Origin: Antedon mediterranea
Lineage: Eukaryota; Echinodermata; Crinoidea; Comatulida; Antedonidae
Reading direction: 5' to 3'
Assembly (NCBI RefSeq): GCF_964355755.1
Contig: NC_092670.1
Coordinates: forward strand, 33,157,795-33,221,794
DNA length: 64,000 nt
The notes under the pieces are model-generated. The model saw nothing but the letters and a program-made list of their open reading frames with translations. It searched no databases and had not been told where the DNA came from. The first letter of the stretch is position 1. Every line of letters begins with the position of its first letter. Positions 1-59,926 of the stretch are shown here, one piece after another. The translations under genes and the position numbers were made by a program.

Positions 1-3000
1 GCAAGAACAGAAGGAAATACATCTACTGGATTCGGTGAGATTTTCAATGGTTCTTTGAAGTTGTCAGTTGCAATAATATCGGCTGAATAGTCAATGGTGG
101 CCGTGGGTTTATTAAAATCAGTTAATACTATCACATTGTTAGACGGACAAGTCAAAACAGGAGGTATGATATCTATGGAAAATGAGTAAAATTGATCAAT
201 CTATATTTATTTTCTTGTAAATAAACGGAGACATCATATGATGTCTCCGTGACGATAGATATTTTTTGTAAAACTACAGCTCCCTTATTAACACAAACAT
301 ATGTCTTACATACTTACACATTTCACATATAGCTACATAACGATTTTCACAGTTGTAATCACCCCAACGTTTTGTCTTTCGAAACCAAGCCACGCAATCT
401 TCGTTATTGCCCCAATTGTTTGGTTCATTGGATTTCCAATCTAAATGATCAATAACTATAATAAAACAAACTCACCAACAGCGTCATCGTCGCCGTCTCC
501 AACGTCTTCGTCGTCATCGTAATCGTCATCGTCATCATCATCATCACCGTCACCGTCACCGTCACCGTCATCGTCATCGTCATCGTCATCGCAAACTACG
601 AGTGAAGTATGACGTCATAACACTGAACAAGTTTACCAAATTCACCATCAACATCATCGTTATGTATTGCCGTGCTTAAAATACAACGAGGCGCATTTGG
701 ACTAGGACTGTTGTGACAGTAACTCCATTACGCGAATATAATATGTACAAGATATAAAAACATAGGCCTACTTGTATAGTTCGATTTTCTTCCTGACAAC
801 CACTCAAAATGTCCTTCTCTTTTTAAATCATTGTATCCAATCCAAGCTTTGTTTAGTGAATTTCGGATAATCAATTGGTTAAGTATCCACAAGTCTTCGC
901 TTTTACTTGAAATTTCAACCAAATTCCCACTAATATTATAGCATACATCTTTCCCGGAATTCCACGTATCAGGTTCATCGGTGAGATGGTAGCATTTAAA
1001 AAAATGAGAGCTATAGTGCCATCCAGGTGGACATCCTACACACAAAATGTATACATACTATGTGTATTGCGAACAAATACATTTGCCTACAGTCTACTGT
1101 AGGCCTAATTTAATTCAATAAAAAATCGTATTATTAGGCGGATTAATAAGAATAAGATATTAATAGAAGGTAAGCTCGCTTCCGGCACTCATCCTCTAAT
1201 AAATGCGGTAGACCTAATTGGTATTTTCAATACTTTATTTTGTTTCTTTTTTTCTTTCGATTTCTAACTTATTAATTTGATATACTAATTTTACAATATA
1301 ATCCGATGATTTATGAATATATTTGATTTGAATTTTATTATTATAAATTGTTTTTGCTAAAATGTCCCAGACTTCGTACAGTTGCGTTCCCTTTAAAATA
1401 TACAAATTCGCACCCAGTTTTAATCCTACGTACAGTTATGTATACCTAACAGTTATTTCAACAACAAAATAGATGTTGTCCATTCCTATATTAGATGTCC
1501 ATATAACCATTCCTATATTAGATGCCCATGTACTTAATAACCATAAAATACTTGTTAATTGTATTTGTCCCAAAAGCACCAAACGATAGAAAGCTAACTA
1601 GTAGGTAGGCCTGCCTAAACAGACAAAAACATGGATTACATGTCGACATCAATCGTCATTGTAGTAGACCGAATTGCCAGGTAATTAAAACAACGTCACA
1701 TAGAGCCTTCTATTTTACTGACTGCCACCGAAGAGGCAGCTAGCGTCAAGTTATATTAAATCATACATATACACGTGTTCCTTATCACTACAATTAGCAT
1801 GCAAATTTAATATGTTTATTGGTCTTGGTTAACATGTTTTGAATCACAGAGCCATGAGTTTAAGTCATGGTTCTGTAACAACATCAGAATTTATCTTACG
1901 ACTAGTTAAGAGGCATTGTCTGTAAGAATCAAAGAAATATCCAAAATGGAAAAAAAAAATTGATTTCTTTAAAATTGTGCACATGGTTGTATATGTGTTG
2001 AGAAAAATCAAATATGAAGTATTTTTTATTTCACACATATAATCCCATGGCAACGGGCAAATTTGTGTTTTTGACAAATTTTGTCATTTTTTAAAGTTTT
2101 TTAAAATAGATATTGGTAGTATTTGATGAACGATATTTTTGTTTTGTTGATTTAATTATAAAAAATAATTACTGTATGTATAGTAACAATGCATTGTCTA
2201 CCTGTTTTATATTTCTTTTTTAATATTTTTGATTTTATACTTTGGGAGATTTATTTAAAAAGGGGTGTTTTTCAGTTTTTTTAAAATATTAAAAACAACT
2301 AAACTTTACTTCACCATAACGCCCAAAATGGGGTATTTTTTTAAGCCGATTTATTACAAATAGGTAGTTGTAATGTATAATAAGTGATTTATAAAATAAA
2401 ATACTGGGGTAATTTAAAAATCAACAAGCAGTGTTGCCAGGAACATAGGTATTTAAAAAAAAAACATTATACCGGTATATTAGAAAACAAATTTATTTTT
2501 CTTTGATTATCTGATTTTAAACCCATGGTCAGAACAATTCTTAATGTTTTATATAATGTTAGTTGGGTTGTGAGAAAAAAAAAACAATATTTTTATTTAT
2601 AGATTCTGTAATTTCCAGTTTTAAAGTCATTTTATAGGTTATGTCCTCTGGAAAGTTCAATAAATTATCAGATCGATGTGAATTTGAATCTTTGCAACAG
2701 CAGCATGCATGCATGCCCCTCCACCACCACTTCCGACTCACCCCCTCCCCCCTCCATCCCAACCCCACAATAACCACAAAAAGACTTGTGTCGATCATCA
2801 ACTATATAGAGAGTAACATTCATAAGATTAAAAAACATTTATTGTTAAAAAATTGTAAAAAAAGAAACGTTACAGAGAATCCCAGATGAAGTTCAGATAC
2901 AATGAACATTGTAGGGAACATAAGAACATGACAGAAACAAGATATTTAGACAAGTAGAAAAAGAAATGTTATAATGGAGTTTGTTATTGTTATCAGTTAT

Positions 3001-6000
3001 TGTAATAACATATTGGCATGTATTTATTTTGTCTGTATGGTATTTATATTTTTGTAATAATTTGTTTGGTAGAATTTACTGAATCTTTTACAGTAATTTA
3101 TTAATTACGATACCTGTGATTTTACATTACCATTGAACATTGAAATCGACAATAGTTTTACAGTTATTTATCAACATTGCCCATGATTCTACGTTATGGT
3201 AGACCACTTCCATTGAAATGTATTTACGGTACCCGTGATTTTACGTTATGGTTGACAAACAGACTTTCAGATTAACAGTAATCTACTGTAGTTCAACAGT
3301 AATTTATTAGAAACGGTACCTGTGATTCTACGTTAGTTGACGTCCGAATTTCAAGTTAACAGTAATTTACTGTAGTTTTACAGTAATTTATTTTCAACAG
3401 TAGCCTACCCGTGATTCTACATTACGGTAGACAACCGACTTTATGACCAACAGTAATTTACTGTAGTTTTAAAGTAATTTATTTTCAACAGTGCCTGTGA
3501 TTCTACATTACGGTAGACAACCGACTTTATGACCAACAGTAATTTACTGTAGTTTTATAGTAATTTATTTTTAACAGTACCTGTGATTCTACATGACGGT
3601 AGACAACCGACTTTATGACCAACAGTAATTTACTTTTATTTTACACAAACCTTTCATTAACAGTACCTGTAAATCTACATTACGGTAAATTACTGGCGTC
3701 CAGATTACCAGTAATTTACCGTTTTTTTACAAGAATTTTTTAAACAGTGTGCAGTCAAGCACCACCCACACTGCCGCTACCATCGCCCCAACCAATAGAC
3801 GGATTCAAACTCATCCGTCACAGAACACCCCCTACCCCAAGTTAAACATTGTAATGCAAGAGATAGGACATAAAGTTAAGTTTTTAGACCCTTGCCTCCA
3901 ACCCCCTAACTATTTCAAAATCCTGGATCCACACTTTCCCCTCCCCAAAATTGAAACAATTAAATGTCAATGATATACTCAGGTATGTTAATGCTACATA
4001 ACAAATATTGAAGCCCTGATGGGAAATTTCATTTCATTTAAGGTCAGCATGTAAAATATTACATTTTATATTTAATATTGGTTTTAATTTTTTTACTGTG
4101 ATTGTTGGATTCAGTAGTAATTATTAATTGCATAGCAACAGTTACTATGGTAACTAAAATAGATATTCTTTGGTCATAACAAATGCCATATCTTGGTTGT
4201 CAATTTTCTTAAGGACAAGTTGGATGATATTATATCGCCTTCTTTTAGTCTGAGTGGTTCCATTTTACAAGTAGTTGATCACATGACGCTTCTTGGTGTA
4301 ATCATTCAAAATGACCTGAAATGGGAACTTAACACTAATAATATTGTGGCTAGAGCTTCTAGACGTTTATTTTCCTTGTGCATTTTGAAGAAAGCAGGAA
4401 TCTTAATTAATGATCTGTTGACTGTTTATATGGCGTATATAAGACCTATTTTAGAATATACTGCCCCTGTTTGGCATGGCGCTATCACTAAGGACATGTC
4501 CAAGTCTATTGAAAAGGTACAAAAGAGAGCATTGCGTATCATGCTAGGTAACAACTATTTGTGCTATGATCATGCATTGTCTGTGACTGGTTTACCTACT
4601 CTTGTTGAGAGAAGAAACAAACTTGTGTTGTCTTTCGGGGAAGGCTTATTAAAATCCGAGCTGTTTAGAGAAATACTTCCCCCTCTTCATAAGCCAGCTC
4701 GGTCTCTCAGATTCAACCGCTTTCTAGAAGTACCTCATTGTAAAACCAGCAGACTTAGGTCGTCTCCAGTTCCCACCATGGTGGATATAATTAATAGGCA
4801 CCACTAGCTCTTTTTTAGATATGTAATAAGTGAATGTTTTTTGGTTTTTTATTCATGTATGTTTTTAATTGTATGGTACGATATCTAATTTCATTAAGAT
4901 GTTTCTATTTTTATAGCAATTTTAACTAATTTTTAGTCATTTGTAATACATTTCATTTCAGTCCTTGGCTGTCGTTTTGTAATATATTTTTATATACCGA
5001 ATAAATAAATAATTATCTTATACAAATTAAAATTTGTAGATTATTAGCAGGAATGCCGAATTTGCATTTTCATATTACCATTTTATAGGGTCAAATTACC
5101 ATTTTATAGGGTCATATTACCATTTTATAGGGTCATATTACCATTTTATAGAGTCATATTACCATTTTATAGGGTCATATTCGTAAGGACTTTCGTTCGT
5201 AAGGAAACCCCGTAATAAAGCAATTGTATTTAGTTACGCATCGAAACAGTTGCTCCTACAATACACTATAGGTCAAATTTGACCTCAATATGTAACATTT
5301 AATCATATTTTTTTCATGAATCCCAATGTTTTATTATTTTTTTAAATTATCCTTATAGAAACAGGTTTAAGATAAGACAAAAGGTCAATTTTTAAACTTG
5401 ATTCAGATTTGTCAGACTTTTTCTCTGAGATTATTAGGATTCAGTATTTAAAGTAAATTTGGGTAAAAGTTGAATTGTAAAACTAAGTGGTATTTATAAA
5501 AAACCCTTATTTTTTAAATATTTTCGCATAGAAACAGTTACTATGGTAAAATGTTGACCTCATTTGACCTAACAATTATTGAATTTCCAAGTTCAAATTT
5601 GTCATTACTTTATGATTATTAGAATGCAGTAGAAGTAAAATTGAGAAAAAGTAAAAATGCAATCAATTCTTTGTATTCATAAAAACATCATATTTTCGTT
5701 TTATTTTATTTTTATTTTTTTTTTATTTTATTTAATCGAAACCAACAGCGATAATTACCGCCACTAACAGGTTTGATACTTAAACAAAGCCAGGACTGTT
5801 TAAAGCACCTTGATTGGTCCTAACATTGATCAAGGGCTTCTCTCGTCCAGTGCCCACCTTGACCAGAGGTCTGAGGCAGATACTAGATGCAGGGGCTACC
5901 ATAAGAGTCAGCAGTGCTGATTTCCATACAGCACCCGTTATTCCCAGATGGTCTCCCATCCAAGCTCTAACCAGGCCCAACATCGCTTAACTTCGGTGAT

Positions 6001-7039
6001 CTGGCGAGAACCGGTGTTTCAACGTGGTAAAGCCGTTTTTGTAATTACTTCCTTAGTTACACACAGAAATGGTTGCTAAGGTAAAACTATAGGTAACAAA
6101 ATGAAATTTGTTGAGAATTTTTCGGAACTATCTTGTAAATTTTTATAAAACATTAATAGTTGAAGTAAAGTGGGACCTGTCCTGTTTTGCACTGTGACTT
6201 CTTTTGAGCTCAAATGACCTATTTACAAGGTCAGATTTTTTGGGACGTCTTTCTGTATTTCTTTACAAAAAATTGATGTCAAAATTTATAAAAAACTTGA
6301 AGGCAATTATTTCAAAGTTTAACATTAATTTCCATCAACTAAATATTCCAATGCAAAATACAGTTTTTCTGGCAATTAATTGAAATAAACCTGGCAACCC
6401 CTTCTTGTATTTTATCTAAACTATTTGTATGACTCTATTAGCATTATGACAAGCCAAATAAATATTTTATTCTGTGAAAAATGCAAAAAACATCAAAATT
6501 TGGATAATTGACCGTTGTCATGGCAACAAAGTTAAAAATTAAAATATGTTGTAGATATGCTTTTTATTAAAGTGTCTATTCATGGTAAAAATTTGAGAAA
6601 AATCCATTTTTTTACATATGCCACCAAATATTTTGATTTTTACAGACAATGGCTCTTAAGTTTGAGTATGTAAATTGATGGATATCGAGTTCTGCGGTGC
6701 TGACGTCACGACGATAGGTGGGGCAGTGTGGACGGTAGGTAGCGCTGCGTGGTTGCTAGCCAACCAAAAATGCGTTCAACCTTCCTGAGTGACGCCAAGG
6801 TCACCGATGGTTTAATAATTTTCAATAAATACAAACTAAAAAACAACCACGCAGCCGATGCGTGGTTGCTCGCAGTGCCATCTATCACACCACAGAACTC
6901 TATGTGTACAACCGACCCGTTACTTCTGGGTAATAATTATGCTATACTAAAGTATAAATATTTCAAACTCACCAGCATCACAAATGACGTAGTATGTACC
7001 AACCAAAATTGACAGTAAAATGCGTTCTTTTGGTTTCAT
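1..7039 (-). CDS. Unit A: CTLD-HYR receptor gene, 5' part (runs off left edge)
   Basis: Four exons on the minus strand: signal peptide 6973-7039 (starts MKPKERILLSIL), CTLD first half 772-1035, CTLD second half 318-440, and the start of an HYR domain from 172 to the window edge. All borders are GT-AG and all junctions are phase 1. The CTLD opens GCPPGWHY and has the WIG-type core (WIGYND), an EPN Ca2+/sugar motif (NEPNN) and the closing Cys of VAIC; the usual WND is WGD. The HYR part shows the family pattern (LTCPSN, then DYSADI, then SPNPVDVFP). Inferred role: secreted or membrane-anchored lectin receptor. The rest of the gene should lie left of the window, probably ending in a GAIN/7TM body as in units B and C. 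The first intron is 5.9 kb and packed with repeats. Close paralogue of unit E. Confidence 0.8.
225..250. repeat. 26-bp perfect palindrome
   Basis: ACGGAGACATCAT followed by its exact reverse complement, in the intron between the CTLD second-half exon and the HYR exon of unit A. The same palindrome is intact in unit E at 55476-55501. Confidence 0.85.
478..595. repeat. GTC/ATC trinucleotide microsatellite
   Basis: Impure run of gtc, atc and acc triplets in the intron between the two CTLD exons of unit A. The paralogous intron of unit E (55728-55806) carries a shorter, differently composed run, so the tract has changed length since duplication. Confidence 0.85.
1036..2814 (-). other. Unit A intron 1, non-repeat part
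   Basis: AT-rich intronic sequence with no convincing exon. It aligns by eye along its length with unit E intron 1 (56262-57932), with small indels only. Short open frames here show no domain and are treated as chance. Confidence 0.6.
2815..3748. repeat. Inserted 86-bp minisatellite block
   Basis: About 930 bp present in unit A but absent from the matching place in unit E (around 57932). From about 3060 onward it is a degenerate tandem array with a unit of about 86 bp, clearest from 3445 to 3650. Each unit carries the self-complementary word acagtaatttactgt plus a block like cctgtgattctacattacgg. It may be a satellite-bearing non-autonomous element or a local expansion. Confidence 0.75.
4181..5010 (+). 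mobile_element. 5'-truncated LINE (jockey/CR1-like), 3' end
   Basis: An open frame at 4193-4807 reads as the C-terminal end of a non-LTR reverse transcriptase: the thumb region with YMAYIRPILEYTAPVWH, then VQKRALRIMLG, ending in a short arginine-rich tail. A 3' UTR and an (AATA)n-type tail at 4999-5010 follow. Catalytic motifs are missing because the copy is 5'-truncated. The paralogous site in unit E (about 58394) has no LINE, so insertion followed the A/E duplication or was lost from E. The exact clade cannot be fixed by eye. Confidence 0.85.
5075..5183. repeat. Five copies of a 21-22-bp tandem repeat
   Basis: The unit attaccattttatagggtca is repeated five times with one or two substitutions. 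Unit E has a single unit at the same place (about 58444-58467), so the array expanded in A after duplication. Confidence 0.9.
5699..6035 (-). mobile_element. 5S rRNA-derived SINE
   Basis: On the minus strand the element begins with a 5S rRNA-like head (6035 to about 5918): ACCACGTTGAAA, then CACCGGTTCTCG, GATCACCGAAGTTAAGC and a GGATGGGAGACC block corresponding to the 5S internal promoter. A roughly 180-bp body and an A-rich (AAATA)n-like tail at 5699-5738 follow. The head identifies a 5S-headed SINE (SINE3 type). The matching place in unit E (about 58785) is empty. It is not a functional 5S gene: the 3' stem is diverged and fused to the SINE body. Confidence 0.85.
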
Positions 7040-7203
7040 TTTGACACCAAACTACTATAATCTGTGTAAATACAACAAGAAAAAATATTGCTGAACTTAT
7101 TCCACTGATTGGAATTTTGATGTGCACTAATAACAAATACGAGAATAAACTAACGAAATGCCACGGATAAAATTAGTAGACGTGTCATAAAATATGATAT
7201 TGT

Positions 7204-7512: not shown

Positions 7513-8681
7513 AACAAAGTAGAATATAATATATCGTTTACAATAATTATTAGCTTGTCAATTCCAACTAATATTAGTTACTATCAGCTTCTTCCATGAT
7601 TTGAAAACTGTAGGTTCAGAATGAAATGTATACAAAATGAGCAATTACAATAATACATAGCTGTCAAATATCTTCTCAAACTCACAAACGAGCTATGACT
7701 AGACAATAAGATAACACTGAGATAGAAATCCTTCTTTCTTTTGATTTTTGGAGACATTCCTTCAAGTTTATTACTTGGAGTTCATATTACTATTATTAGC
7801 TTAAAGATGTATTGTACCCAAAACATGAAAATAAAGATAAATTTAAAAAGACTTTGGATAGGCCATTTTGCAGTGTTAATAATGTTCATAACAAATATTT
7901 TCACTATTTAAGATTGTAACCGTATTGATTTCAACCCAGAAGAAATCTTCTTTAATGTTATTACTAATAAATAAATAAATAAATACAAAAATTAACTTGC
8001 ATTCCTACTTTCATCATCATAATTAGATAAAAGTGTAGTGCTATTATATACATTTTTAGTTAAATATTATGTAAATTAGAAAATGAATAAATACAATTTT
8101 ACATAAGTCCATTATAATTATTATACAAATATAATCTGATGTGTGGCAAATGCAGAGTATGAATAAATCATAATTCTAGAGCCACGAAATATTTTTAAGT
8201 ATTGCATCACTGAACTACAATAAAATCCGTATGTGAATATTATCATTTCAATCGACTCAAGCCTTGGTGACATAATGTTTGCATTAGCGTGAAGAAAATA
8301 ACTTTAAATTCAAGTCATTTGCGTTGTCACAGTTGACGTAGTAATTCGGTTTTTCTTAAACCTCTTCTTAAAACATTCGTTTATCTACGAAACGATAAAA
8401 TACCAGTATTATTATAATTGAATTAAATAGCAATCGTACAATCGTTTTCTTATAACAAATACATAATACAAGTCTAAAAGATTTAATCTTCGTAAACTTG
8501 AATCGGAACAAATCATAGTGAGGTAATCTAATGTACGAATAATGGTACGAGATGTGAGAAGGATGCCTGAGTAACTGGTTTTGAGTTATCGTGTCTTTTT
8601 TTTTATAGCAAAACTACATACTCCCAGAATATGATCCTAAATATGATATAATTTGTCATGCGCCACCTGGTTTAGAATATT
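7513..8681. other. Intergenic stretch between unit A promoter side and unit B 3' end
   Basis: AT-rich. I see no exon, RNA gene or clear repeat. It should hold the unit A promoter (upstream of 7039 on the minus strand) and the unit B 3' UTR, but no specific element could be identified. Confidence 0.4.
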
Positions 8682-10678
8682 TTAGGACACTGGTTTTTGT
8701 TGTAATCTTACTGTAGGCCTAAACAGCAATAACGGTAATAATACCTCGTTATCAAGTAGACCGTAGATGACGAATATAAATATGCCTTGGCATCCGTTCA
8801 ACACGTTGAATATGTAATCAACAAATGTTGTATCAGAACTGACAGCGAATGGTCCAATGAGCCACGTGGTACCCATTAGAGGTAGAAGCATTGCAGTTCC
8901 TTTGGCTGCTTTCCTGTACGTTTTAATAATACTTGTAATTAATTGAAATTCTAACGTATATCTAACGAACAATATTCTATAAAATTGATTAATGTAATGG
9001 ACATTGTAATTTTAAAATTATTTCTAACCTCAACTGTTTAAATGTAGTTTTCTCTCCTGTTGATTTTCCTACCATGTTTCCAGATCTTTTGTAGATTGTC
9101 AAGACAACGTAGATCAAAATAGCTGTATTAATCTGAAAAAATTGTACAGTTGATTTTGAATTTGAGGTTGGGATTTCATAATAACAGCCACATTAGTGTA
9201 TAGGCCTATTTGTTTTTGGTATTGACCACAAAATAATTACGCAGTAATGGTGCGGTGTTTCGCATGACCAAAGAAAACAGGTTAAAATCTTATTCGAAAG
9301 ACGGTATCATCTCAACAAATTATATTTTGTCTCCAGTGATCTTTCTCCCTCGCCATTTATGTATACATACTTAACTGTCATGTTAATTGGTCTTACCAAA
9401 GCAATACATGCTGCGGGTGCTACAAACGTCCATATCATGCCTGTTTCTGGACTGAGCCAACATCTAGAATAACAATTTCAAAAAATCACAATTGAATAAA
9501 ATTAAATAGAAGAACTTCAGTGATGCATTGGCTACTACCTATTATTATCTTATTACTGAACCGTAATGTGAACATAAACCATTATAAAAAAAAAAAGAAA
9601 AACAAAGAAAACTTACAGGCTATCGACATTAAACTTAGAAGCAAATGCACCAACAGAAATCGCAACGATCACAAAGGAAACTCCATAACAGATTATGAAA
9701 TAATACCGTAGTAGGTAAAAGTTGGCGTTACTTGACATAGAAAGCTTAGACAGTAAGTATACTGCTTCTGCGCACATCCAAGTAAATGTATTAAGTGATG
9801 TGAAATGTAGAAAAATGCTTATGCATTTACAAACAATCTGAAAAACGTTATTATAATGAAACACGTTGGCTTAGTTTAATAAATGTAAAGTGTTATTTAA
9901 ACAAGAAATATTTCTTACAAGAAACGCCGCTCGACTCATTGACAATTTGAATTTTTATTTTTTCTTAATTAAATTATGCTTTTATTGATATTTCAATTAA
10001 TAAATTAAGAAACAGTGATTATTATCAATACTTGTTTGCTTAACAATCAGTAAACATCTGAAATTCTCTATTTGGTTACGTTGTTTGTTTATGTAATGTG
10101 CATAGACCGTTCACGGGCGCTGAAGTGCATATTATATTATTATCAGCAGATTTTTTCATAGGCTCTCTTCTCCCCGATTTGCTTTTATGTCTGCTCATGC
10201 TCACTCCGAAATGTTTCCATAAACTCTCTTCTCTCAGATGTGCATTAGGGTATGCGCATGCCCAGTGCAATTTTATAAATTCTCATTTTTTGGCCATCGT
10301 AAGTAATAATATATTGTATAATTTAAACGAATAAACGAAATGCCTCCAAATGAAAAAAAAAACAACTTACCTCATTTTCTGTTTTGTCGATTCCAAATAA
10401 GAACAGAGATTGCATTATAATCATATTAATCACCAAGTTCTTATGAATTGAATTGCGCACAGATTTCCACAACTTTCTAAGAATTAAATGTCAAATTATT
10501 ATGTTCGTTTACGAATATACTACGTTGTTAAAATATGCCTTACGCATTAAAAATATAATAAAATCGAAACTTACGAAAACGAGAAGTACATGATGAGTGT
10601 TATCACCAAATAAATAACTGATAGTGATACACAGACTGTTGACATTAAGCTTAGAGTTTCTCTGTTTTCAACAGAAAC
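8682..10678 (-). CDS. Unit B seven-transmembrane module (family B2-like)
   Basis: Six exons. TM1 in 10575-10678, TM2 in 10371-10476, TM3-TM4 in 9617-9837 (TFTWMCAEAVYLLSK matches the conserved W..EA..LY of adhesion GPCRs). Extracellular loop 2 is in 9397-9463 (CWLSPETGMIWTF), TM5 in 9029-9132, TM6-TM7 in 8682-8913 (LLPLMGTTWLIG and FNVLNGCQGIFIF, both family signatures). Exon phases agree throughout. The last exon reads through GAG|GTATTA to a stop at 8682; if that GT is used as a donor, a tail exon exists that I could not find. Expected at the plasma membrane, signalling after GPS cleavage and tethered-ligand exposure. Confidence 0.88.
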
Positions 10679-13600
10679 CTTTATGGATAAATATTGTATT
10701 ATTAATTATAAACTACAACATAATAAGATTATTAGATACAAAGATTAGATTAAAGTAAACTTGGCGTATATTTTTGTGTTGTAAGGTTTACTTTCTGCAA
10801 AATATAATATATGCAATCGTATGGTGGTTAAACATTCGGGATAAACACTTTTTGGGTTAAATATGATTTGGATGGAAGCACTAGCGAAACACGAAAAAAG
10901 TCGAAACAAATATTTTCCATTATTTTGCTAACTTACATTGTCTGTTGTAACTTTCATTAACACGCTAAAACTCGTTAGATGTTCAGAATAACACGACACT
11001 TGATCCATAGAATACGACGTGGTTACCATACCAGCATCACTCCAAGTACTGTACAAGAACAATACCAGAAGGCAGTATTGTTGAGTCACGATAACAAATA
11101 TTTACTAAAGATAAGAGTATAAACACTGAAGAATAGAACATGTTTATGTGTTCGATTCTAGAAAACGAAAATTATTTGAAGTAGAACACGAAGTAAGACA
11201 ATGTCAGGTAACACAAAACTTTGTACGGAATTATACGAGGATATTCTCCATCTTGTGAACAAGATCCTCTAACCGTAATGCATAGGCATTGCAAAAACTT
11301 ACCTTCGTGTTTCGTCCAAGAACACGCAAAACATCTCCCATTTATCCTTGTTAGTCACTGAGGAACTCTAGAAGAAGATTAATTAAACTACTCATTAAAG
11401 AACATAGTACATCGTTTGAGAACAGTAGTGAATTACCCCGGTATACTAGTAGTACACATACAGCCATTGATCATAACTGGGCCCTCTCTGGAAGACCAGT
11501 CTTTGACTGAAGAGGTTGCCCAGTATAAATATATATAAGAAATTCAAAGTTGTTGTACTTACAATTCGCTTGGTCATGGTAAATTCTATTTTCGCTTCCA
11601 AGGGCATTTGGTCATTGAAATCGTAAACGCTACAGGAAAATACCATTCCGTTGAAATATCTAAATGCAATGTTTGCATTAGATCTGATGGAAAGAAATGC
11701 AGAAAAGTAAGATATAGGATTTGTTTTAAAGAGTAAAGTAAACATTATTCTCTTTTAAGAATAATTTTTTTAATCTACATATTTATTAACACTTTATATA
11801 AAGAAATAACTTACAAATTAGAAATATCAACACCTTCATTTACAGCTTCATTCTCGCCCATTGTGTTGTTACTGTAAGATGCTATAATTAGCATATCACC
11901 TTGAAAAAAATAAATTAAAATTACAAATAATAATTAACAAAATAAAATAACGAATCTATATTCTTAGTCATAAAAAGAACATATAATACAAAATATAGAG
12001 AAAAGAAGAATGAATATGTTTTATCTATTTTAAAAATTTATCAAGAAGTGCTATAAGCCGTATGATTATTTATTACTACCAAAATACAGGAAGAATGAAT
12101 GTATGAAGTGTCATTTGTAAAATAAAGTAAAAACAAAAAACATATAGAAATAAATTTAATAGAAAAAAGAAAAATGAGTTTCGTCTGATTAGCAGCATCA
12201 AAGCATTTGACTTTTTTCGTTTGTTGTTTTGTGTCGATATGTTACTTTATATTCAATTCGAATTTCTATTCTATTCTTAGTCCTACCATATTAAAATTTT
12301 GTAATTGTAAGAATGGCACGATCTCCATATTGGTAAACATCTTCAATAAACATAAATAAATAGCAAGTGATAGGTCAAACCTGTATTTTCAGCTTCAATC
12401 TTCAGATCAAAATCCAGCTGATCATCGTCATGTTCAAGACTGCTATTAACGAATATCTCGCTCTCTATCACTAATAATCCAACTACAAAAAAACATAAAT
12501 ATATCATTATGTCTATTTCTAACAACACTACAAGACACTTCCAACACCTGATTGAATATTTATTTTGTTTTGATTATTCACTGCTAAAGACTCCGGTGGT
12601 TTAATTTGACTAAATACTTTTTAGGAAGCTCAAATTGGAAGCTCAAATACATAAAGAACTTGCCATATGTTTCTTCCTCATAAACTTTCCGCGGCTCCAT
12701 TGATTGTAAGTTCGATATTTTGGATAAAACTTCGTGTTCAAACTCGTGGAATTCAGTTACAAATGATTCCATTTTCTAAAAAAATAATTAAGTATGCTGT
12801 AATTACAACTATAATTGTAAGGATCTACTGACGGAATTTTATTCTCTGACGATCACGCATAGATTGGAATTATTTGTTTTAATTGTTATTTAATGTACGT
12901 ATTCTTATATACAAAATAATTTTGAAGAATAAATTGTTAAAAGAGAAACGAATGATATAAAATAACATTAAGTAATGATTAATAGTATGTTGTAATAATA
13001 AATAATCAATAATTAGCCTACCATTTCTGTTTGAAGAATCCACATTGAAGCAAACAAAACAATAATGATAAACTTAAACTTAAAATGAAAATGTATGTAC
13101 GTGTTATAGTTATACAGTTATATGAGTTTAGGCTAAATTGGTATCAATTTCGGTACGTTGAATGGCGGATAACAAAGAATATTTTTACGTCTTGACTACC
13201 TAAATTGCATAAAACAAAATAATTATTCATTGTATAGTTAAAAAATTATTATATAGTTATTTTCTAATGGCTAATCTATACATGACCTTAAACATTACTT
13301 AAATACATTTTTTCAAATAATTTACCCCATTTTCCGAATATCGCTGCCACGTTCAAATCTACCGTTCACACCTATGTGATTAATAAACTTGTTTTCACTA
13401 CAAAATTTAAACCTTATTCTTTCCCTACTTAGGATTACTAACCTCTAAAAGTGATTACGAATGTACAGTTCATAGTATTTCCGGTTTCTATGTTTTTCCT
13501 AAAACAAATGATAATAAATGATACTTGACTTGACTTGACGTTAAATGTAAAAGAATTTTCGCCAACCCACAGCCTTGCTGGAAATATTACAGATGGGTCT

Positions 13601-16600
13601 GGTGAAATGTGAGTAACATCTTCAGAATTATCGTCAGCATCTATTGCACATGAATAGTAAAGACTTGTTGTTGAAGATGATTCAGACTCAATTATCCCAT
13701 CTGATGGAAATTTCAATGTTGGTTCTTCTGTGTCTAATCAAATAGTATAAACTAATCATTCATTTAGGTTCATTGTACACATATTGCTCATTGTAAACTT
13801 GGTACATCTTTCGAGACGAGTAGGGGTTAGCCCGGTGTACTGATACTGATATTATATCACAACCACTGATCATAACTGGGCCATCTGAGAGACTAGTATT
13901 TGACTGAAGAGGTCAGTGAGTATAAATTAATATTAACAAACAATACATACATATACACAACCCACAAAAAATGATAAAATATGTCACCAGGAAATTAACA
14001 ATATTATCTTCCACAAAAGCAACCTAAATTAATAGACTAAAATATCAATTTGCACCAACGATGATACTATATGGCTATTATTATCATGGTACATAATGTA
14101 CATGGTTATGTTATTATGTATACAGACTGATTGTCTTTACGCCATTAAACATTTAAAAACAAATCATCTTTCATAATGCTTTTAAATACGGTACAGCTTT
14201 TCTAAAGATCAGAATAATTTTAATGGCATTTAAAAAAAATGTTTTCAGGTATCTTCTGTAAATGAACTTTTTCAACGCATAATTTAGTTGTTGGTTAAAA
14301 GTAATATCAAAATAAATGATGATATTACAAATATTTAAAAAAAAACGAACAAAGCAATTAACTTCCAATTTATTTGAGTATGTTTTTATATTAAAAATAA
14401 ATATAAGTAATTAATTGTGTAAAAAATATATTAAAAAACTTGTATTAACTTTTGATATAATCACAAATATAAGAAATATACTATTAACAAAACAACTGCA
14501 TTCACTAACACATTATTTTCAGTTCTATGTTCTAATTGTGTATGTACCCACTTTTCTATTTTTAATATAAATAAAGATGAATATTTGATTGTATTTGTAT
14601 TTCCATCATCCTATAATGATTTATGGTTCAATTTGACATTGTTATCGTTAATTACTTTAAGAAATATTAATCAAAAATACATATCCAATAAGTCATTCAA
14701 TTTGACACGTGAAAAATGTACAATAAATATTAAAGAAACATGAGTTCTTGTTAAGACTTATATAGCCTATTATGACCATACGTGTTAGCAATATTCGTAT
14801 TACAAAGTACATTAATTTCAGAGCGTATTTGCAATTTTCGAGACATAATTTTCAACCAAAATAATTTGAAAATTGACTTTAATAATGTTACGATAAATAA
14901 ATTCACAAAATTTTACATGTACACGGAAACACGTCTACCCTCAAATATTTTCTGTTACCGTAATTATAGTTTATAATTTAAAGAATTAAATTAATAATAA
15001 GGAAATAAACAATGCATAATTAAAAGTGACCATTCTGACCTTCGACATTGATTTCAAAGGAACAATTTCCAGTTTTTTTAAACTCATCAGTATAGTTGAA
15101 CTTGAATTCATGTTTTCCAATGCCGAGCTTCACAGGAAATGCTTCAGAAGGAAGCGGTAAGATGTCCATTCCGTCTATTGTCAGTACGCTTCCATTTACA
15201 AATACTGAGTCGGAGTAGTCAACAGATGCAATTGGGTATCCTACGTCAGTATGTACGGTATTGTCAGATGGACACATCAATACCGGCGTGTGAAGATGAC
15301 GTGCTGTAGTTAGATAACAGTGTGTTTGTATTATACCATGGAGGTAATAAATAAATCTTATTAATGTTTGTTCATGACATAAACAATGGAATAATAATTA
15401 ATTGATTTACAAACTGGCTTCTGATATCTAAGAAATGTTCATATGTGAAATAGGATCAGTCGTTAATAGTAACGTTGTCTACACACGTTATGTAAAAAAA
15501 ATGTTTTGCACCGAACCCTGAATGAGCAATATTGCCATACTATTTGAAATCGCAGCTACAGTAGATTTATATTAAACAAATTTACCAAAAGAGTTGAAGT
15601 TTTCAATTCAATGAGATAATATACAATTAATAAATCATTTCTGGCCTCTTTATCAGGCTTCCTGTATTTAAGATAGTAACCACAAAGTACCACTTGTTAC
15701 GTAAGTAGTATGTGTTTTCAATTGTTTTGCAGATATCTAAGAATAGAAATCAACTTACGTTCAACGTTTATTGTAAACGTACAACTGTTTGCATTGTTGG
15801 ATGAGTCTGTAACTGTAAACGTGTACACATACTCCTACTCCAATATTAGATGGGAATATTGAATTAGGAACTGGTGATATAACAAAGTCGTTTGAGTTGT
15901 CATTTGCAGTTATATCGGTGGAGTAGTCAACTGATATGGCGACTGTTGTCGTTTCTATAGTAACATTTGCAGGACATTCCACTGTAGGGGATTCCGTATC
16001 TGTCAAACAATTAACAACATTATGGACATTTCAAAGTGCGCATTAGTCAGTATCAACCTGTAATTTTAAAACGGAAGCGGCTGTCGCAATAATGTATTGT
16101 ATTTCACAAACCTTCAACCGTTACGGTAAAATTGCAGCTTCCTCTATTGTTATAAGCATCTGTAACATTGAATTCAAACAGGTATTTTCCAATCGCAAGA
16201 AAAACGGGAAATACATCTACTGGATTCGGGGAGATTTCCAATGGTTCTTCTGAGTTGTCCGTTGCATTAATGTCGGCTGAATAGTCAACGGTGGCCGTTG
16301 GTATACCAAAATCAGTCACTATAATCAAATTGTCAGCCGGGCAGGTCAAAACGGGCTTTTCGGTATCTAAGAAACAAACAAATAAATATACGTACATCCT
16401 CACAAATAATAATTTGGAAAGTGATACAATCTTAGACCAAAGTTTAAAATGTGTTTCTTCCATGAAAAAAAACAAACAATTTTTTAAACACCTTGGTCTC
16501 TATGGAATGAGAGCTATAATATATTTTTTCACGACATTTAATAGATTTAGAAGCCAATTTTTTTTTACAATTGGGGTTTCCAATGTACGCATGCGCAAGA

Positions 16601-25067: not shown

Positions 25068-25551
25068 CCATAAAACCTTGAAAAGAAGCCCATGGGCGTA
25101 AACCTCGAAAAGAAGCCCATCTCAAAAAGAAGCCCCCCTCTACAGTTTGCAAAAGTACTCTCGAAAAGAAGCCCATCTCGAAATGAAGCCCCTGGGCTTC
25201 TTTTCAAGATAGTATGGGTTTCATTTCGAGATAGACTACTCATACTGTATTGAGATGATGACGAAATTATTGTATTTGACGGTGAATAATAGGACTGTTT
25301 TTTTTGCTTTTTATATTGTTTTTTAATTGGTATATTAAACATAATTTCATGGTTTAAATAATTTCTCAAAAGGCCTAGTAGAAATTCAAAACATTTAAAG
25401 AATTCATTTCGAAAAGAAGCCCCCCTCTACAGTTTGCAAAAGTATTCTCGAAAAGAAGCCCATCTCAAAAAGAAGCCCATCTCAAAAAGAAGCCCACCCA
25501 CGAGCACTAAAAAAAGAAGAAGCCCATGGGCTTCTTTTCAAGGTTTTACGG
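25068..25551. mobile_element. 484-bp MITE with TA target site
   Basis: Terminal inverted repeats of about 30 bp: the left begins ccataaaaccttgaaaagaa and the right ends with its near-exact complement ttcttttcaaggttttacgg. Both are flanked by TA, as expected for Tc1/mariner-type insertion. The interior is dominated by tandem gaaaagaagccc words in both orientations. No transposase. It lies just past the 3' end of unit C. Confidence 0.8.
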
Positions 25552-25826
25552 TATATAGGTAGTCTTATAGCAGGTCTAATACAAAGTTAGCCTCACAACA
25601 GTGTGATGATCGTCGTTACAACAATTGTGGTGTTGGTGGTTGTGATATGGGTGATTAAGATTATTTGCTATATCAACTCAAATGTTATGAGTTCATATGC
25701 TTCAACACTGTAAAAATAATTCCACTCCCAAAGACTTAATACACAATATATTATGTAATGTTTACCATGTGCAACCTATTCTATAGCACAGTACTAACAG
25801 TAGAATTAAATAAAAGTATTGTAGTA

Positions 25827-48417: not shown

Positions 48418-49587
48418 ATTTGTCACACAACGCTACCCACGCTGTTTCTGCACACGATATGTCATGCCAAGCACCGTTTAAAGGTTTATGCAGAACAGCA
48501 CAATCTTCGTTACCCAATTGGTTTGGTTCACCATCATACCAATCTAAAGAAACGTAAAATATAATTATAACAGATCTAAATATATTCTTATCATTTGATT
48601 GTTGGACGATTGTGCAATTAAACGATCTTCTTAAAAATATTCTCGCATATAGAAACATTTTTTATTTAATTTATTTTTTATTAAATCTGCTTTCATGTGT
48701 CTTTGCTTTAGACAAGACATAGGTACGAGTTCCGATGCCACTACTTTAAAAAAAGCCTGCTATTCACAAAATAATGATAGTGTATTAGTTCGTACAGTAT
48801 ATCTAACAATACCCGCCATTATTATGGCCCTAATTTGTTGACCCTGTATCAATTACATACTGCTATATTCGTCTTAAGCTCTGTCTACACTATCAAATTA
48901 ATTCGACAAACAACAAAATGTGATGTGCCAAATTTGGCAGTAATATTCCCAAATATGGTAGTGATATGACAACTGTATGTCCAAATATAGGAATATCACA
49001 TTTTTTTGGTCACATAAAGTTTCATAGTGGAGACAGATATTTATGTAGATACAAGGATTAATCTTATCGTTTGAAGGGGTTCTAAATATTACCGCCTTTT
49101 TATTGTTATAAGTTGATAGTTTTGGTAGGTTTGTCTGGCGTATCTAGTAGAACGTTTTATTGACCATCAACACATAACAATCAACTCGGCTAAAACACTA
49201 AGATCAAAATTTAACTATCGAAAATGTATTTCTGTATTGAATTTGTTTTTAAAAAATCAATAATATTATTATTATAACGGAAAAAATTATCTATACGAAG
49301 AGTTCTCTTTAATCAAAATTGTATAAAACCATACGTGTATAGTTGTCACTAATCCCAGACAGCCACTGAAAATAGCCTTCTATTGCGATATCATTATTGG
49401 CAATCCAAGCTCCATCTGATGTGGAATCCTCAGCAAATTGTTGAAGTATCCACAAGCTTTCTTCTTCAGTTAAAATATCGATTAAATCAACGGTAAAATA
49501 TGTGCATATATCTCCACGTACCATATGCGTTGGTGACCCAATAGCATTTTGAACATGCGGTGTTGTAATGCCATCCAGTTGGACACC
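48418..49587 (-). pseudogene. Unit D: broken copy of the C lectin exons
   Basis: CTLD first half 49335-49587 (253 nt) and second half 48418-48543 (126 nt, intact, with GEPNQ, WHD and VALC). The first exon is 11 nt shorter than its 264-nt counterpart in C: aattatacaag after GGCACGTGG is missing, which shifts the frame within the first third of the domain. No signal exon is present upstream; the duplication ends at a LINE at 50131. The equivalent of the possible tail exon has also lost its acceptor. Almost certainly a pseudogene. Confidence 0.85.
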
Positions 49588-50131
49588 CTGAAATAAAATA
49601 AATTTCCATTTATTTAAACGTTATGTATACCTGATTTGATGACTTTAATGGTATTTCAATGGTATTGTACAGTAAACTTAGGGGAACATGAAGTAAATTG
49701 TATAATGCAATATCTTTAGTCTATTATTATCTACAACGAAGTATCGAAAAAGTGGCGATTACAAATTCACGGTCAGATCAGATGTCATAAACCTTGTCTA
49801 CACTATCAAACTCAATGTGACAAAAAATGCGATATGCCCATATATGGACATGATGATGTCATATCACTACCCTCTTTGGTTATACCACTACCATATTATT
49901 ACCTACAACGAAATATAAAAAAGTGGCGAATACAAATTCACGGTCAGATCACATGTGTGCAAAAATGATCAAAAATGTAGGCCAAAAACACAATTCTCGT
50001 CCTTAAGCCTTGTCTACACTATCAAATGATTTTAAACTTGGACTCATGGATTTAGACAAACAAAACTAGGTAGAACAGTTTAAAAGGCATTTAAAATTAA
50101 AGTATTTAAAATTATTTAAATCAGATCAGAG

Positions 50132-53420: not shown

Positions 53421-53422
53421 AT

Positions 53423-53497: not shown

Positions 53498-53546
<49 letters not shown>
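53423..53546. repeat. 35-bp inverted repeat followed by (AT)n
   Basis: ttttttcagtaatttgcctttggatttatatata (53423-53456) is followed after six bases by its near-exact complement (53463-53497), then an (AT)n microsatellite to about 53546. Could fold into a long hairpin. Confidence 0.9.
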
Positions 53547-53549
<3 letters not shown>

Positions 53550-54129: not shown

Positions 54130-54441
54130 TTTAGTGAATCTGCTTGTAACAGTTGATATCTGGCACTTGGATTCCTTTCGTATATATGTCTTGGCTACCG
54201 TTAATAAAATAAAACGCTAGGCGTGAGTAAACTTTATCTTATGTTTATTGTTATCGAGTAATGAAGATTATTTCAATGTCAGTCTTTAGCTGTTAGGCTT
54301 TATTAGATCTATCAATATGTTTATACATAAACAAATAATGTTCATTCATTTCGAAACCATGGTTTGTCATTTAAAAACAATGTTTTGTCTTCGATAAAAA
54401 AAATACTATATATTGAATAAATTCATCTGGTTCCAAATAAT

Positions 54442-54970: not shown

Positions 54971-55168
54971 TATAGTTTTTCTTCTATAAAACATGATTTT
55001 TTATTAACAAACCATCATTGTCTTTCAAGGGAGACAAACTATGGTTTGTAAAAGCAGACAAGAGTTTGTTTGTAGTGTGTCTGTTGGCGCTCGTAGTAAC
55101 TCGTTTAACTGCACAAGCTTATACTTTAACAGGCATACACTACACTTTTATACTTCTATGTTACTAAC

Positions 55169-58100
55169 ATTTAACTATTATTGCAAAATTACAGCTCCCT
55201 GTGTTGTTATACGCATCCCTAATATTGAACACAAACAGGTGACTTCCAATCGCAAGAACAGAAGGAAATACATCTACTGGATTCGGTGAGATTTTCAAAG
55301 GTTCTTTGAAGTTGTCAGTTGCAATAATATCGGCTGAATAGTCAACGGTGGCCGTGGGTTTATTCAAATCAGTTAATACTATCAAATTGTTAGACGGACA
55401 AGTCAAAACAGGAGGTTTGATATCTATGGAAAATGAGTAAAATTTATCAATCTATATTTATTTTCTTGTAAATAAACGGAGACATCATATGATGTCTCCG
55501 TGACGATAGATAATTTTTGTAAAACTACAGCTCCCTTATTGACACAAACATATGTCTTACATACTTACACATTTCACATATAGCTACATAACGATCTTCA
55601 CAGTTGCAATCATTCCAACTTTGTCTATTTCGAAGCAAAGCCACGCAATCTTCGTTATTTTTCCAATTGTTTGGTTCATTGAAACTCCAATCTAAATGAT
55701 CAATAACTATAAAAACAAACTCACCAACATCATCATCGTTGTCGTCGTCAGCGTCTTCGTCGTCGTTATCATCGTCATCATCATTATCATCATCATCATC
55801 ATCGGCATTTTGCCGTTCGCTCGCAAACTACGAGTGAAGTATGACGTCATAACACTGAACAAGTTTACCAAACTCACCATCATCGTCATGTATCGCCGTG
55901 CTTAAAATACAACGAGGCGCATTTGGGCTAGGACTGTTGTGACAGTAACTCCATTACGGGGATTTAATATTTACAAGATATAAAAACATAGGCCTACTTG
56001 TATAGTTCGATTTTCTTCCTGACAACCACTCAAATTGTCCTTCTCTTTTTAAATCATTGTATCCAATCCAAGCTTTGTTTATTGAATTCCGGATAACCAA
56101 TTGGTTAAGTATCCACAAGTCTTCGCTTTCACTTGAAATTTCAACCAAATTCCCACTAATATTATAGCATACGTCTTTCCCGGAATTCCACGTATCAGGT
56201 TCATCGGTGAGATGGTAGCATTTTAAAAATTGAGAGCTATAGTGCCATCCAGTTGGACACCCTACAAACACAATGTATTTGTACTATGTGTATTGCGAAC
56301 AAATAAATTTGCCTACAGTCTACTGTAGGCCTAATTTAATTCAATAAAAATGCGTATTATTAGGCGGATTAATAAGGAATAAGATACTAATAGAAGGTGA
56401 GCTCACTTCGGGCACTCATCCTCTAATAAATACGGTAGACCTAATTGGTATTTTCAATATTTTATTTCGTTTCTTTTTTTATTTCGATTTCTGACTTATT
56501 CATTTTATATACTAATTTTAATATATAATCCGATGATTTATGAATATATTTGATTTGAATGTTATTATTATAAATTGTTTTTGCTAAAATGTTCCAGACT
56601 TCTTATCAGTTGCGTTCCCTTTAAAATATACAAATTCGCACCCAGTTTTAATCCTGCGTACAGCTATGTATACCTAACAGTTATTTCAACAACAAAATAG
56701 ATGTTGTCCATTCCTATATTAGATGCCCATATAACCATAAAACACTGTATTGTATTTGTCCCAAAAGCACCAAACGCGAGAAAGCTAACTAGTAGGTAGG
56801 CCTACCTGCAGTAAACAGACAAAAACATGGATTACATGTCGAGATCAATCGTCATTGTAGTAGACCGAACTGCCAGGTAATTAAAACAACGTCACACAGA
56901 GCCTTCTATTGTACTGACTGCCACCGGAGAGACAACTAGCGTCAAGTTATATTAAATCATACATATACACGTGTACCTAGGTGACAATTAGCATGCAAAT
57001 GTAAGATGTTTATTGGTCTTGGTTAACATGTTTTGAATCACAGAGCCATGGTTTTATATCATGGTTCTGTAACAATATCATAATTTATCTTACGACTAGT
57101 TAATAGGCATTGTCTGTAAGAATCAAAGAAATATCAAAAATGGAAAAAAATCGATTTCTTTCAAATTTTACACATAGGTGTATATGTGTTGAGAGAAATC
57201 AAATATGAAGTATTTTTTATTTCACACATATATTCCCATGGCAACGGGAAAATTTGTGTTTTTGACAAATTTTGTCCTTTTTAAGGTTTTTTTAAAAAAG
57301 ATATTGGTACTATTTGTTGAACGATATTTTTGTTTTGTTGATTTTATTATAAAAAACAATTATTGTATGCATAAAAACAATGCATTGTGTACCTGTAACA
57401 TATTTTTTTTAATATGTTTGATTTTATACTTTGGGAGATACCATTTATTTTAAAAGGGGTGTTTTTGAGTTTTTTTAAATTGTTAAGAACAACTAAACTT
57501 TACTTCACCATAACGCCCAAAGTGGTGCATTTTTTTAAGCTGATTTATTACAAATAGGTAGTTCTAATGTATAATAAGTGATTTCTAAAAATAAAATACT
57601 GGGGTAATTTAAAAATCTACAAGCAGTGTTGCCAGAAACATAGGCATTTAAAAAAAAACATGGTATATTAGTAAAACAAATTTATTTTTCTTTGATTATC
57701 TGATTTTAAACCCATTGGTCAGAACAATTCTTAATGTTTTATATAATTCTAGTTGTGTTGTGAGAAAAAAAACACAATATCTTTAATTATAGATTCTGTA
57801 ATTTCCAGTTTTAACGTCATTGTATAGGTTATTCAATTCAATCACCACTTCCGACTCCCCCCCCCCCCACCCCCCACCCCCACAATAACCACAAAAAGAC
57901 TTGTGTCGGTCATCCACTATATAGAGAGTAAAATGCATGCAGTCAAGCAGCCACCCACACTGCCGCTACCATCGCCCCAACCAATAGACGGATTCAAAAT
58001 CCTCCATCACACAACACCCACCTCCAAACCCCCCACCTACCCCAAGTTTAAAATTGTAATGCAAGAGATAGGACATAAAGTTAAGTTTTTAGACCCTCGC

Positions 58101-59926
58101 CTCCAACCCCCTAACTATTTCAAAATCCTGGATCCACCACTTTCCCCTCCCCAAAATTGAAACAATTAAAAGTCAATGATATACTCAGGTATGTTAATGC
58201 TACATAACAAATATTGAAGCCTTGATGGGAAATTTCATTTCATTTAAGGTCAGCATGTAAAATATCACATTTTATATTTAATATTGGTTTTAAATTTGTT
58301 GTTAATTTTATATTTTTTACTGTGATTGTTGAATTCAGTAGTAATTATTATTTGCATAGCAACAGTTACTAAACTAGATATTCTTTAGATTGTTCATAAT
58401 TATCTTATACAAATTAAAATTTGTAGATAATTAGCAGGCATGCCTAATTTGCATATTACCATTTTATAGGGTCATATTCGTAAGGACTTTCGTTCGTAGA
58501 GAAACCCCGTACTTAGTTACGCATTGAAACAGATGCTCCTACAATACACTATAGATAAAATTTGACCTCAATATGTAAAATTTAATCATATTTTTTTCAT
58601 GAAAACCCATTTTTTTTTTTTTTTTAAATTATCCTTATAGAAACAGGTTTAAGATAACTCTAAAGGTCAATTTTTAAACTTTATTCAGATTTGTCAGACT
58701 TTTTTCTCTGAAAAAGTAAAGTTGAGAAAAAGTACAAATGCAATCAATTCTTTGTATTCATAAAAATGTCATATTTTCTGGGTTTTTTTTAATTACTTCC
58801 TTAGTTACACATAGAAATGGTTGCTAAGGTAAAACTATAGGTAAAAAAATGAAATTTGTTGAGAATTTTTATGAACTATCTTGTAAATTTTGATAAAACA
58901 TTAATAGTTGAAGTAAAGTGAGGACCTGTCCTGTTTTCCATTGTGACCTCTTTTGACCTCAAATGACCTATTTACAAGGTCAGATTTTTTGGGACGTCTT
59001 TCTGTATCTCTTTACAAAAAATTGATGTTAAAATTTATAAAAAACTTGGAGGCAATTATTTCAAAGTTTTACATTAGTTTCCATCAACTAAATAATATTC
59101 CAATGCAAAATACTGTTTTTCTGGCAATTAATTGAAATAAACTTGGCAACACATTCTTGTATTTTATCTAAACTATTTGTATGACTCTATTAGCATTATG
59201 ACAAGCCAAATAAATATTTGATTCTGTGAAAAATGGAAACAACATCAAAATTTGGATAATTGACCGTTGTCATGGCAACGAAAGCTAAAAATTAAAATGA
59301 ATGTTGTAGATATGCTTTTTATTAAAGTGTCTATTCATGGTAAACATTTGAGAGAAATCCATTTTTTTTACATCTGCCACCAAATATTTGATTTTTACAG
59401 ACAATGGCTCTTCTTAAGTTTGAGTATGTAAATTGTTGGATATAGAGTTCTGCGGTGCTGACGTCACGACGGTAGGTGGCGCTGTGTGGACGGTAGGTAG
59501 CGCTGCGTGGTTGCTAGCCAACCAAAAAATGCGTTCAACCTTCCTGAGTGACGCCAAGGTCACCGATGGTTTAATAATTTTCAATAAATACAAACTAAAA
59601 TTTCAAAAGATCATTAAATATTTGTTTTTAATAATTTATTTATTCTTCAACAACAGTTTAAGTTTAAAAAAACCAAGCTAAGATACATAGTTTGGTAGAA
59701 ATACAGATTTATATAGTTTATCAACATAGCGTTGAACGCATTTCTTGGTTGGCTAGCAACCACGCAGCCGATGCGTGGTTCGCAGTGCCATCTATCACAC
59801 CACAGGACTCTATGTGTACAACCGACCTGATACTTCTGGGTAATAATTTACAAACTCACCAGCATCAGAAATGACGTAGTATGTACCATCCAAAATTGAC
59901 AGTAAAATACGTTCTTTTGGTTTCAT
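55169..59926 (-). CDS. Unit E: signal peptide-CTLD-HYR gene, receptor body not found
   Basis: Exons: signal 59860-59926 (67 nt, MKPKERILLSILDGTYYVIS), CTLD 55998-56261 and 55569-55691, HYR 55169-55423 (255 nt, ends GTTAAAT|GTTAGT). All joins phase 1; CTLD has GCPTGWHY, WIGYND, FNEPNN, a standard WND and VAIC. Near-identical to unit A exon by exon. Compared with A, the signal peptide core has Asp for Val and Ser for Cys, which may weaken secretion. No GAIN or 7TM exon follows before the Penelope remnant and LINE at 50-55 kb. E may therefore be a truncated gene, or may splice onward into distant exons; the C body has compatible phase. Confidence 0.75.
55476..55501. repeat. 26-bp perfect palindrome, E copy
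   Basis: Identical to 225-250: ACGGAGACATCAT and its complement, in the CTLD/HYR intron of unit E. No base change although the surrounding intron differs at several positions. Confidence 0.85.
56262..59501 (-). other. Unit E intron 1
   Basis: AT-rich intron paralogous to unit A intron 1 but without its insertions. Contains a poly-C tract at about 57858-57892 and repeated TGACCT/AGGTCA words (58560-58990). Open frames here (for example 57903-58160) are shared with A but are proline-rich low-complexity and show stops and indels between copies; not called as genes. Confidence 0.55.
59502..59768. repeat. 37-bp inverted repeat flanking about 190 bp
   Basis: Left arm 59502-59538 (gctgcgtggttgctagccaa, then gcgttcaa) and right arm 59732-59768 are reverse complements with one mismatch. 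MITE-like. Unit A (6744-6865) has the left arm and part of the interior but lacks about 150 bp including most of the right arm, so it was truncated by deletion. Confidence 0.8.

Follow-up and report, generated by a model that had tools for sequence, protein, structure and literature searches.

Lectin domains have been described on adhesion G-protein-coupled receptors (GPCRs) before. In amphioxus a Lectin C-type domain is present in the N-terminus of such receptors, among several domains new to the family, according to the available passages of PMC2246102. Latrophilins (ADGRL) are reportedly adhesion GPCRs whose lectin-like domain is of the rhamnose-binding type (PMC2430599). Of 30 adhesion receptors in Ciona, 21 are reported with the GPS as their single domain (PMC2396169). 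Here we consider a window of 64,000 nucleotides (C1:33,157,795-33,221,794; contig NC_092670.1) from the crinoid Antedon mediterranea. The window has a GC content of about 32% and comes from a genome of 354 Mb in 18 contigs. Its minus strand carries five units with a C-type lectin-like domain (CTLD), HYR exons and two bodies with a GPS and a seven-transmembrane (7TM) domain, all with mapped splice sites. We argue that these belong to adhesion GPCR genes arrayed in tandem, in which a signal peptide is followed by CTLD, one to five HYR, GAIN-like stalk, GPS and 7TM. Taken as a whole, with the mechanism proposed below, we consider this reading likely.

Receptor genes and the joint between head and body

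The initial annotation had counted five lectin units and two GAIN/GPS/7TM bodies in one orientation. That count stands on the minus strand, and Pfam names the exons Lectin_C, HYR, GPS and 7tm_2. In window coordinates the lectin units are A (59,926-55,164), A1 (49,588-48,419), A2 (44,393-42,147), C (21,122-16,973) and D (7,039 to beyond base 1). The GPS/7TM bodies are B (30,783-24,943) and C (12,775-8,310). The head that belongs to body B is lectin A2, and the two joined give a single open frame. This gene B is the one complete receptor gene inside the window. It runs from 44,393 to 24,943 on the minus strand and encodes signal peptide, CTLD, HYR, GPS and 7TM in a frame of 714 amino acids without a lesion. 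The signal-peptide exon (MGPKGRTIDLLPPFLMFAHCIICVA.., 44318..44393) has a phase-1 donor. Two CTLD exons follow (43038..43301 and 42147..42272, both phase 1/1), the second with EPN and WHD motifs. The HYR exon (31858..32109, phase 1/1) scores 25.3 bits alone and 16.9 bits in the whole protein, against a Pfam cut-off of 21.7. Fourteen more exons lead to the stop at 24,943. They are a 5-nt microexon, AACGG (30931..30935), that takes phase 1 to phase 0, six GAIN-like and GPS exons (28903..30783) with a GC donor after the first and an HL/T site, and six 7TM exons with a tail exon that holds the stop (24943..28686). The long intron of gene B also contains a palindromic element resembling a foldback transposon (36079-38557), whose arms of 268 and 251 nt are 93% complementary.

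Three further genes, G1, G3 and G4, are also complete and lie within 210 kb of the window. G1 and G3 have 716 codons each and one detected HYR each. G4 (33,050,357-33,030,053) has 1,052 codons and five HYR exons, with intact counterparts of every exon of unit C. The fusion of CTLD, HYR and GPS/7TM that had been proposed for this DNA is thus found in four open frames. Chance is a poor explanation, since these four units give lesion-free frames across 18 to 22 exons. Signal-peptide exons with phase-1 donors are present in B, C, G1, G3, G4, A and D. Phase-1 introns flank the intact lectin and HYR exons on both sides. The initial annotation had claimed this 1/1 pattern for all lectin and HYR exons; it is true of the intact ones, but HYR1 and HYR3 of unit C and the first CTLD exon of A1 are frame-broken.

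Profile searches name the domains at both ends of the protein. Lectin_C matches the joined exons of unit C at E 4.2e-21 and the whole proteins B and G4 at 1.5e-10 and 2e-16. The HYR profile gives 88.3 bits in G4, with five stretches at E up to 1. GPS scores 34.4 and 35.2 bits (cut-off 22.5), and 7tm_2 reaches E 1.2e-44 in B and 7.5e-47 in G4. Among solved structures the body is nearest to ADGRD1 (E 7.4e-43) and the lectin to the macrophage mannose receptor (E 1.9e-27). When ADGRD1 and ADGRL3 are aligned to the query, the matches start ahead of the GPS, from residues 129 and 118 of the query. All seven bodies have the site EHL/TSFSVLM and keep the first and third GPS cysteines. The available passages of a recent survey give a TxFAVLM-like consensus for the tethered agonist of adhesion GPCRs (PMC12716839). 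The stretch here, TSFSVLM, differs from it at one fixed position.

The joint between HYR and body is worth considering closely. HYR exons end in phase 1 and the first GAIN exon begins in phase 0, so a 5-nt exon repairs the phase. Such a microexon (aacag, 5 nt, gtagg) precedes all eight copies of the first GAIN exon (seven units, with two copies in G2), inside a conserved block. The frames of B, G1, G3 and G4 depend on it. The motif AACAG-N5-GTAGG was derived from these same eight copies; across 297 kb the minus strand has it 11 times, with 8 of these at microexon sites, and the plus strand not at all. One could read the conserved block as an alternative start exon (..MWILQTEM). We reject this, because the copies in G1 and G2b have a 2-nt insertion in the block but keep the splice sites on both sides and the 5 nt between them, and because only the 5-nt exon restores the phase. 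The microexon is the best argument within the sequence that heads and bodies may share one transcript. A GC donor (gcaagt) replaces GT after the first GAIN exon in all eight copies (window positions 12664 and 30678 for the two inside the window). In unit G2 (C1:32,979,934-32,977,967) the microexon and the first two GAIN exons are doubled, and the unit is otherwise broken.

Tandem duplication is evident, and the cluster extends past the window. Seven close bodies lie between 32.948 and 33.188 Mb on C1, with weaker relatives elsewhere on C1, on C9, on C11 and at other sites; 89 of 424 candidates were scored in this family search, so the counts are lower bounds. There are 16 lectin heads, some broken, in 32.895-32.925 and 32.945-33.242 Mb (A, A1, A2, C, D, D2, E, G1-G4, H, I, J, K and Lc). 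The pair A2 and B is repeated as I and G5, 106-124 kb away, in the same head-to-body order and with pieces of intron in order. HYR number varies too, with five detected in G4 and one each in B, G1 and G3. This agrees with the earlier claim of tandem duplication with variable HYR number.

Diverging heads and the mosaic gene G1

G1 makes the case for exchange within the array. Synonymous divergence (dS) between C and G1 is 0.80 in the CTLD, 0.20 in GAIN/GPS and 0.09 over the 7TM. In the pairwise dS and omega comparisons, any exon with a stop was removed from its pair (CTLD exon 2 and TM1 of G2, TM2 of G5, and TM2 of G3, read there with a wrong acceptor), and CTLD exon 2 of G3 was not included. 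In trees the G1 head groups with A, D and D2 (support 100/100), and the G1 body groups with C, G4 and G2 (support 99/98). Forcing the head to join C, G4 and G2, a group picked after the dS values were seen, lowers the log-likelihood by 110 and gives an approximately unbiased p of 3e-47. The DNA tells the same story. The blocks that G1 shares with A and D begin ahead of its signal peptide and reach as far as the HYR extends, introns and signal-peptide exon included. The match with C runs from shortly ahead of the microexon through the tail; within the head region it is confined to CTLD exon 1 and the HYR exon. The homology switches between 32,960,979 and 32,952,844, in the intron of about 8 kb that separates HYR and microexon. 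On this evidence G1 is clearly a mosaic of an A/D-type lectin head and a C-type body.

One can imagine that the heads never moved and that gene conversion homogenized the bodies. The bodies of C, G1, G2 and G4 are indeed close (7TM dS 0.04-0.12) and their heads far apart. However, the blocks of the G1 head that match A and D include introns and the signal-peptide exon, so a head swap is the simpler route. Conversion is a serious competitor that we nevertheless think falls somewhat short of even. Either process makes G1 a mosaic. Exchange may be the general mode by which the array diversifies; one clear mosaic was found.

The heads also differ at the sugar site. EPN specifies mannose-type binding and QPD galactose-type binding. 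EPN is present in 8 of the 11 heads with an aligned second exon (A, D, G1, C, G4, A2, I and J). H has EPS, K has QPD and Lc has neither, and the head of G3, read separately, has EPK. Head K (C1:32,904,459-32,903,481), with QPD in place of EPN, suggests a different sugar class.

Selection on the two ends of the protein can be compared. The ratio of nonsynonymous to synonymous change (omega) is 0.17-0.37 for the 7TM in 21 pairs. For the CTLD it is 0.21-0.81, except in G1-A (1.16), G1-D (1.69) and A-D (2.19). The second CTLD exon, which holds the sugar site, gives p 0.052 for A-D and 0.043 for G1-D, one-sided and uncorrected. The A-D difference in this exon amounts to 15.7 nonsynonymous against 0.3 synonymous changes. 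Since non-coding divergence between A and D is 2-11%, this excess stays a hint.

Units A and D are heads alone. Unit A (55164..59926) has its signal peptide at 59926-59860, with position 59,926, where the initial annotation had ended, as the start codon, CTLD exons at 56261-55998 and 55691-55569, and HYR at 55423-55172. Unit D (1..7039) has its signal peptide at 7039-6973, CTLD exons at 1035-772 and 440-318, and an HYR that runs from 172 past the start of the window. In each a stop comes directly after the HYR donor position, giving a head-only frame of 237 codons, with AATAAA within about 200 nt (by eye). A tblastn search at E up to 0.05 found no body exon after A as far as A1, or after D as far as 33,075,001. 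Judged from these frames, A and D probably encode secreted lectins. Unit D is a copy of unit A by segmental duplication. The regions 1-7100 and 55160-60100 of the window lie about 53-55 kb apart with blocks 87-97% alike, and the divergence rises to 28-30% at both ends where homology stops. A tandem repeat of 86-nt units in 5.3 copies sits at 3229-3687, and another of 104-nt units in 2.9 copies at 22708-23003. Between A and A1 there is a reverse-transcriptase fragment (51570-52250, plus strand, RVT_1 E 6.8e-17), adjoined by long plus-strand open reading frames from 50,070 that have no family match. By its sequence this is a LINE-like insertion.

Broken copies and rival explanations

Unit C would seem the obvious model gene of the window. 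It has the full exon set, signal peptide included, from 21,122 to 8,310, but its frame is broken. Its signal-peptide exon (MGPRGLALLSILVVTHYVICDA..) is at 21056..21122 and its CTLD exons are at 20396..20659 and 16973..17098, the second with EPN and WHD. Five HYR exons follow. HYR1 (16630..16870) has an 8-nt deletion relative to the close copy G4, and HYR3 (15759..15999) a 2-nt deletion; both break the frame. HYR2 (16112..16366) and HYR4 (15040..15303) lie among them, and HYR5 (13443..13733) has an in-frame insertion or rearrangement relative to G4. After the microexon AAATG (13022..13026) comes a GAIN-like/GPS/7TM body of 13 exons (8310..12775) with 480 amino acids open. Since HYR exons are phase 1/1, skipping of HYR exons would keep a frame. 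We rejected C as a model because of its two frame breaks and used B, G1, G3 and G4 instead. The initial annotation had proposed joining the exons of this unit and searching Pfam; the search does name Lectin_C, HYR, GPS and 7tm_2, but the joined frame is the broken one. Unit A1 (48419..49588), a duplicate of A2, has a frameshifted first CTLD exon and is an orphan head.

It must be said that several observations count against an array of working receptors. Three of the seven units (C, G2 and G5) have frame or splice lesions, so much of the array may be decaying. The signal-peptide exon of the I and G5 copy was not found in the stretch covered there. The Pfam GAIN model gives no match with the limit set at E 1, and most weak matches are discarded by the HMMER filters. 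Of the three HYR exons of C that were joined for an initial Pfam search, just one passed E 0.01. Only A, G1, H and J, 4 of the 11 aligned heads, keep the WND part of the sugar site intact; C, G4, A2 of gene B, I and K have WHD there, and D has WGD. No CTLD total is significant for positive selection in any of eleven pairs (lowest p 0.14), of which five cover both CTLD exons and six a single one. Finally, the second and fourth of the four usual GPS cysteines are replaced in all seven copies. These cysteines pair C1-C3 and C2-C4, and one disulfide would be lost if that pairing holds here. Members of the adhesion GPCR family vary in these cysteines, so we do not take the missing pair as an exclusion.

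The lesions invite another scenario, in which most copies of the array are decaying under drift, and relaxed constraint, not a diversifying function, accounts for the variety of heads. It is in line with the lesions in C, G2 and G5, in A1 and probably in H, with CTLD omega values that mostly lie between 0.2 and 0.8, and with the selection totals just given. However, four of the seven units are lesion-free (B, G1, G3 and G4), and the low 7TM omega holds in all 21 pairs. HL/T and TSFSVLM are identical in seven of seven. Units A and D remain open although most of the non-coding stretches around them differ by 2-11%. We regard decay under drift as doubtful for the greater part of the array. The claim of a diversifying family was right in part; divergence of heads and a head/body mosaic support diversification at the level of sequence, but the selection totals on the CTLD do not.

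A further alternative concerns what the receptors are for. They might serve gamete recognition, or self/non-self recognition between individuals, and not the sensing of pathogens. Egg coats and the extracellular matrix of marine invertebrates contain CTLD and HYR proteins, and diverging heads fit this role. They fit pathogen sensing equally, and the sequence has nothing that separates gamete or self recognition from immune or developmental roles. As a specific claim we find it unlikely.

One can also split the array into neighboring genes, secreted lectins with lectin-HYR exons and short-headed receptors with GPS/7TM exons, that duplicate together. The head-only units A and D, each with its stop after the HYR donor position and AATAAA nearby, the orphan heads J, K and Lc in a 30-kb stretch where no body exon was found, and the 10-kb intron between head and HYR in B all lean this way. 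But separate genes are quite improbable, because the HYR-microexon-GAIN phases fit in B, G1, G3 and G4, the microexon is readily understood as the link that joins HYR to body, A2 with B and I with G5 have kept the same order, and the sole candidate start exon seen for a body (..MWILQTEM) is not conserved, although no systematic search for such exons was made.

Proposed mechanism and known systems

We return to the array of single receptor genes. If it is right, we infer the following scenario. A lectin head at the outer tip would bind glycans on microbes, cells or matrix in a Ca2+-dependent manner, and the HYR repeats would act as a spacer. The receptor would cut itself at HL/T. Displacement of the head would then expose the tethered agonist TSFSVLM, activating the 7TM body and, in turn, a G protein. 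Diversification of the array would come from unequal exchange, with phase-1 heads swappable in the intron between HYR and the phase-adapting microexon. Copies such as A and D, which are heads alone, would probably be secreted lectins.

A bolder version, which we offer tentatively and think less likely than not, is a modular glycan-receptor system. Interchangeable lectin heads, membrane-bound or secreted, would be recombined onto near-constant self-cleaving bodies, with the microexon adapting any phase-1 head. Such an innate recognition repertoire would vary through exchange of heads in the germline, and its signal would pass by way of a tethered agonist. If it is borne out, the array would tie lectin recognition directly to G-protein signaling, with exon phase and microexon permitting domain swapping. 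To our knowledge most adhesion GPCRs have no known ligand. Different lectin heads on close bodies with identical cleavage sites would make a natural experiment, where head specificity can be compared at a near-constant signaling part. The heads alone could be soluble ligands or decoys.

Is the combination uncommon, as the initial annotation held? Among the literature matches listed, whose coverage leaves most subscription journals outside, there is no report of CTLD with HYR on an adhesion GPCR. A CTLD-HYR receptor is also absent from the available parts of a 2025 survey of GPCRs in animal relatives (PMC12716839, whose accessible text has no passage on HYR) and of a 2026 adhesion GPCR review (PMC13197933). 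Lectin-C adhesion GPCRs are already known, as the amphioxus receptors attest, and what lacks a report in the literature searched is the combination with HYR. The claim must also be qualified by a similar order at a second locus of the same genome, C7:24.776-24.795 Mb. Profile matches for CTLD, HYR and GPS lie there on one strand, together with about 12 HYR-like exons and 7TM-like exons seen by eye. That locus is distant in sequence, has more of the usual GPS cysteines and HT/T in place of HL/T, and is known from separate exons and not from a joined frame.

Genome-wide profile counts for CTLD, HYR and GPS are lower bounds, with at most 150 candidates scored. Among the 139 GPS matches listed, 15 have an HYR within 20 kb upstream on the same strand, judged by eye and without a shuffled control against the 150 HYR matches listed, which omit the weaker HYRs of the window family. 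Eight of these are at C1:6.59-7.30, two at C1:39.57-39.64 and one each at C3:27.76, C4:22.20, C8:18.65, C7:24.78 and C7:7.62. On the minus strand of C7:2,285,068-2,320,980 there are eleven GPS matches 3-6 kb apart, ten with equal score. They probably form a recent tandem array.

The window family can now be set beside the known receptors. It shares a CTLD on an adhesion GPCR with amphioxus. The term HYR is absent from the amphioxus text, and its available passages describe no exchange of heads and bodies (PMC2246102). With the macrophage mannose receptor, CD23 and DC-SIGN it has in common a CTLD by sequence and, in most heads, EPN; it differs from them in that its heads often have WHD or WGD for WND. 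Those three proteins are not GPCRs. For the latrophilins, we know of no relation between their lectin fold and the CTLD, of no HYR repeats and of no tandem array. ADGRD1 and ADGRL3 are like the array bodies in the end of the GAIN region, the GPS with HL/T, the tethered-agonist stretch and the 7TM. The aligned chain of ADGRD1 has four GPS cysteines against two in the array bodies, and the N-terminal domains of ADGRD1 and ADGRL3 are other than CTLD-HYR.

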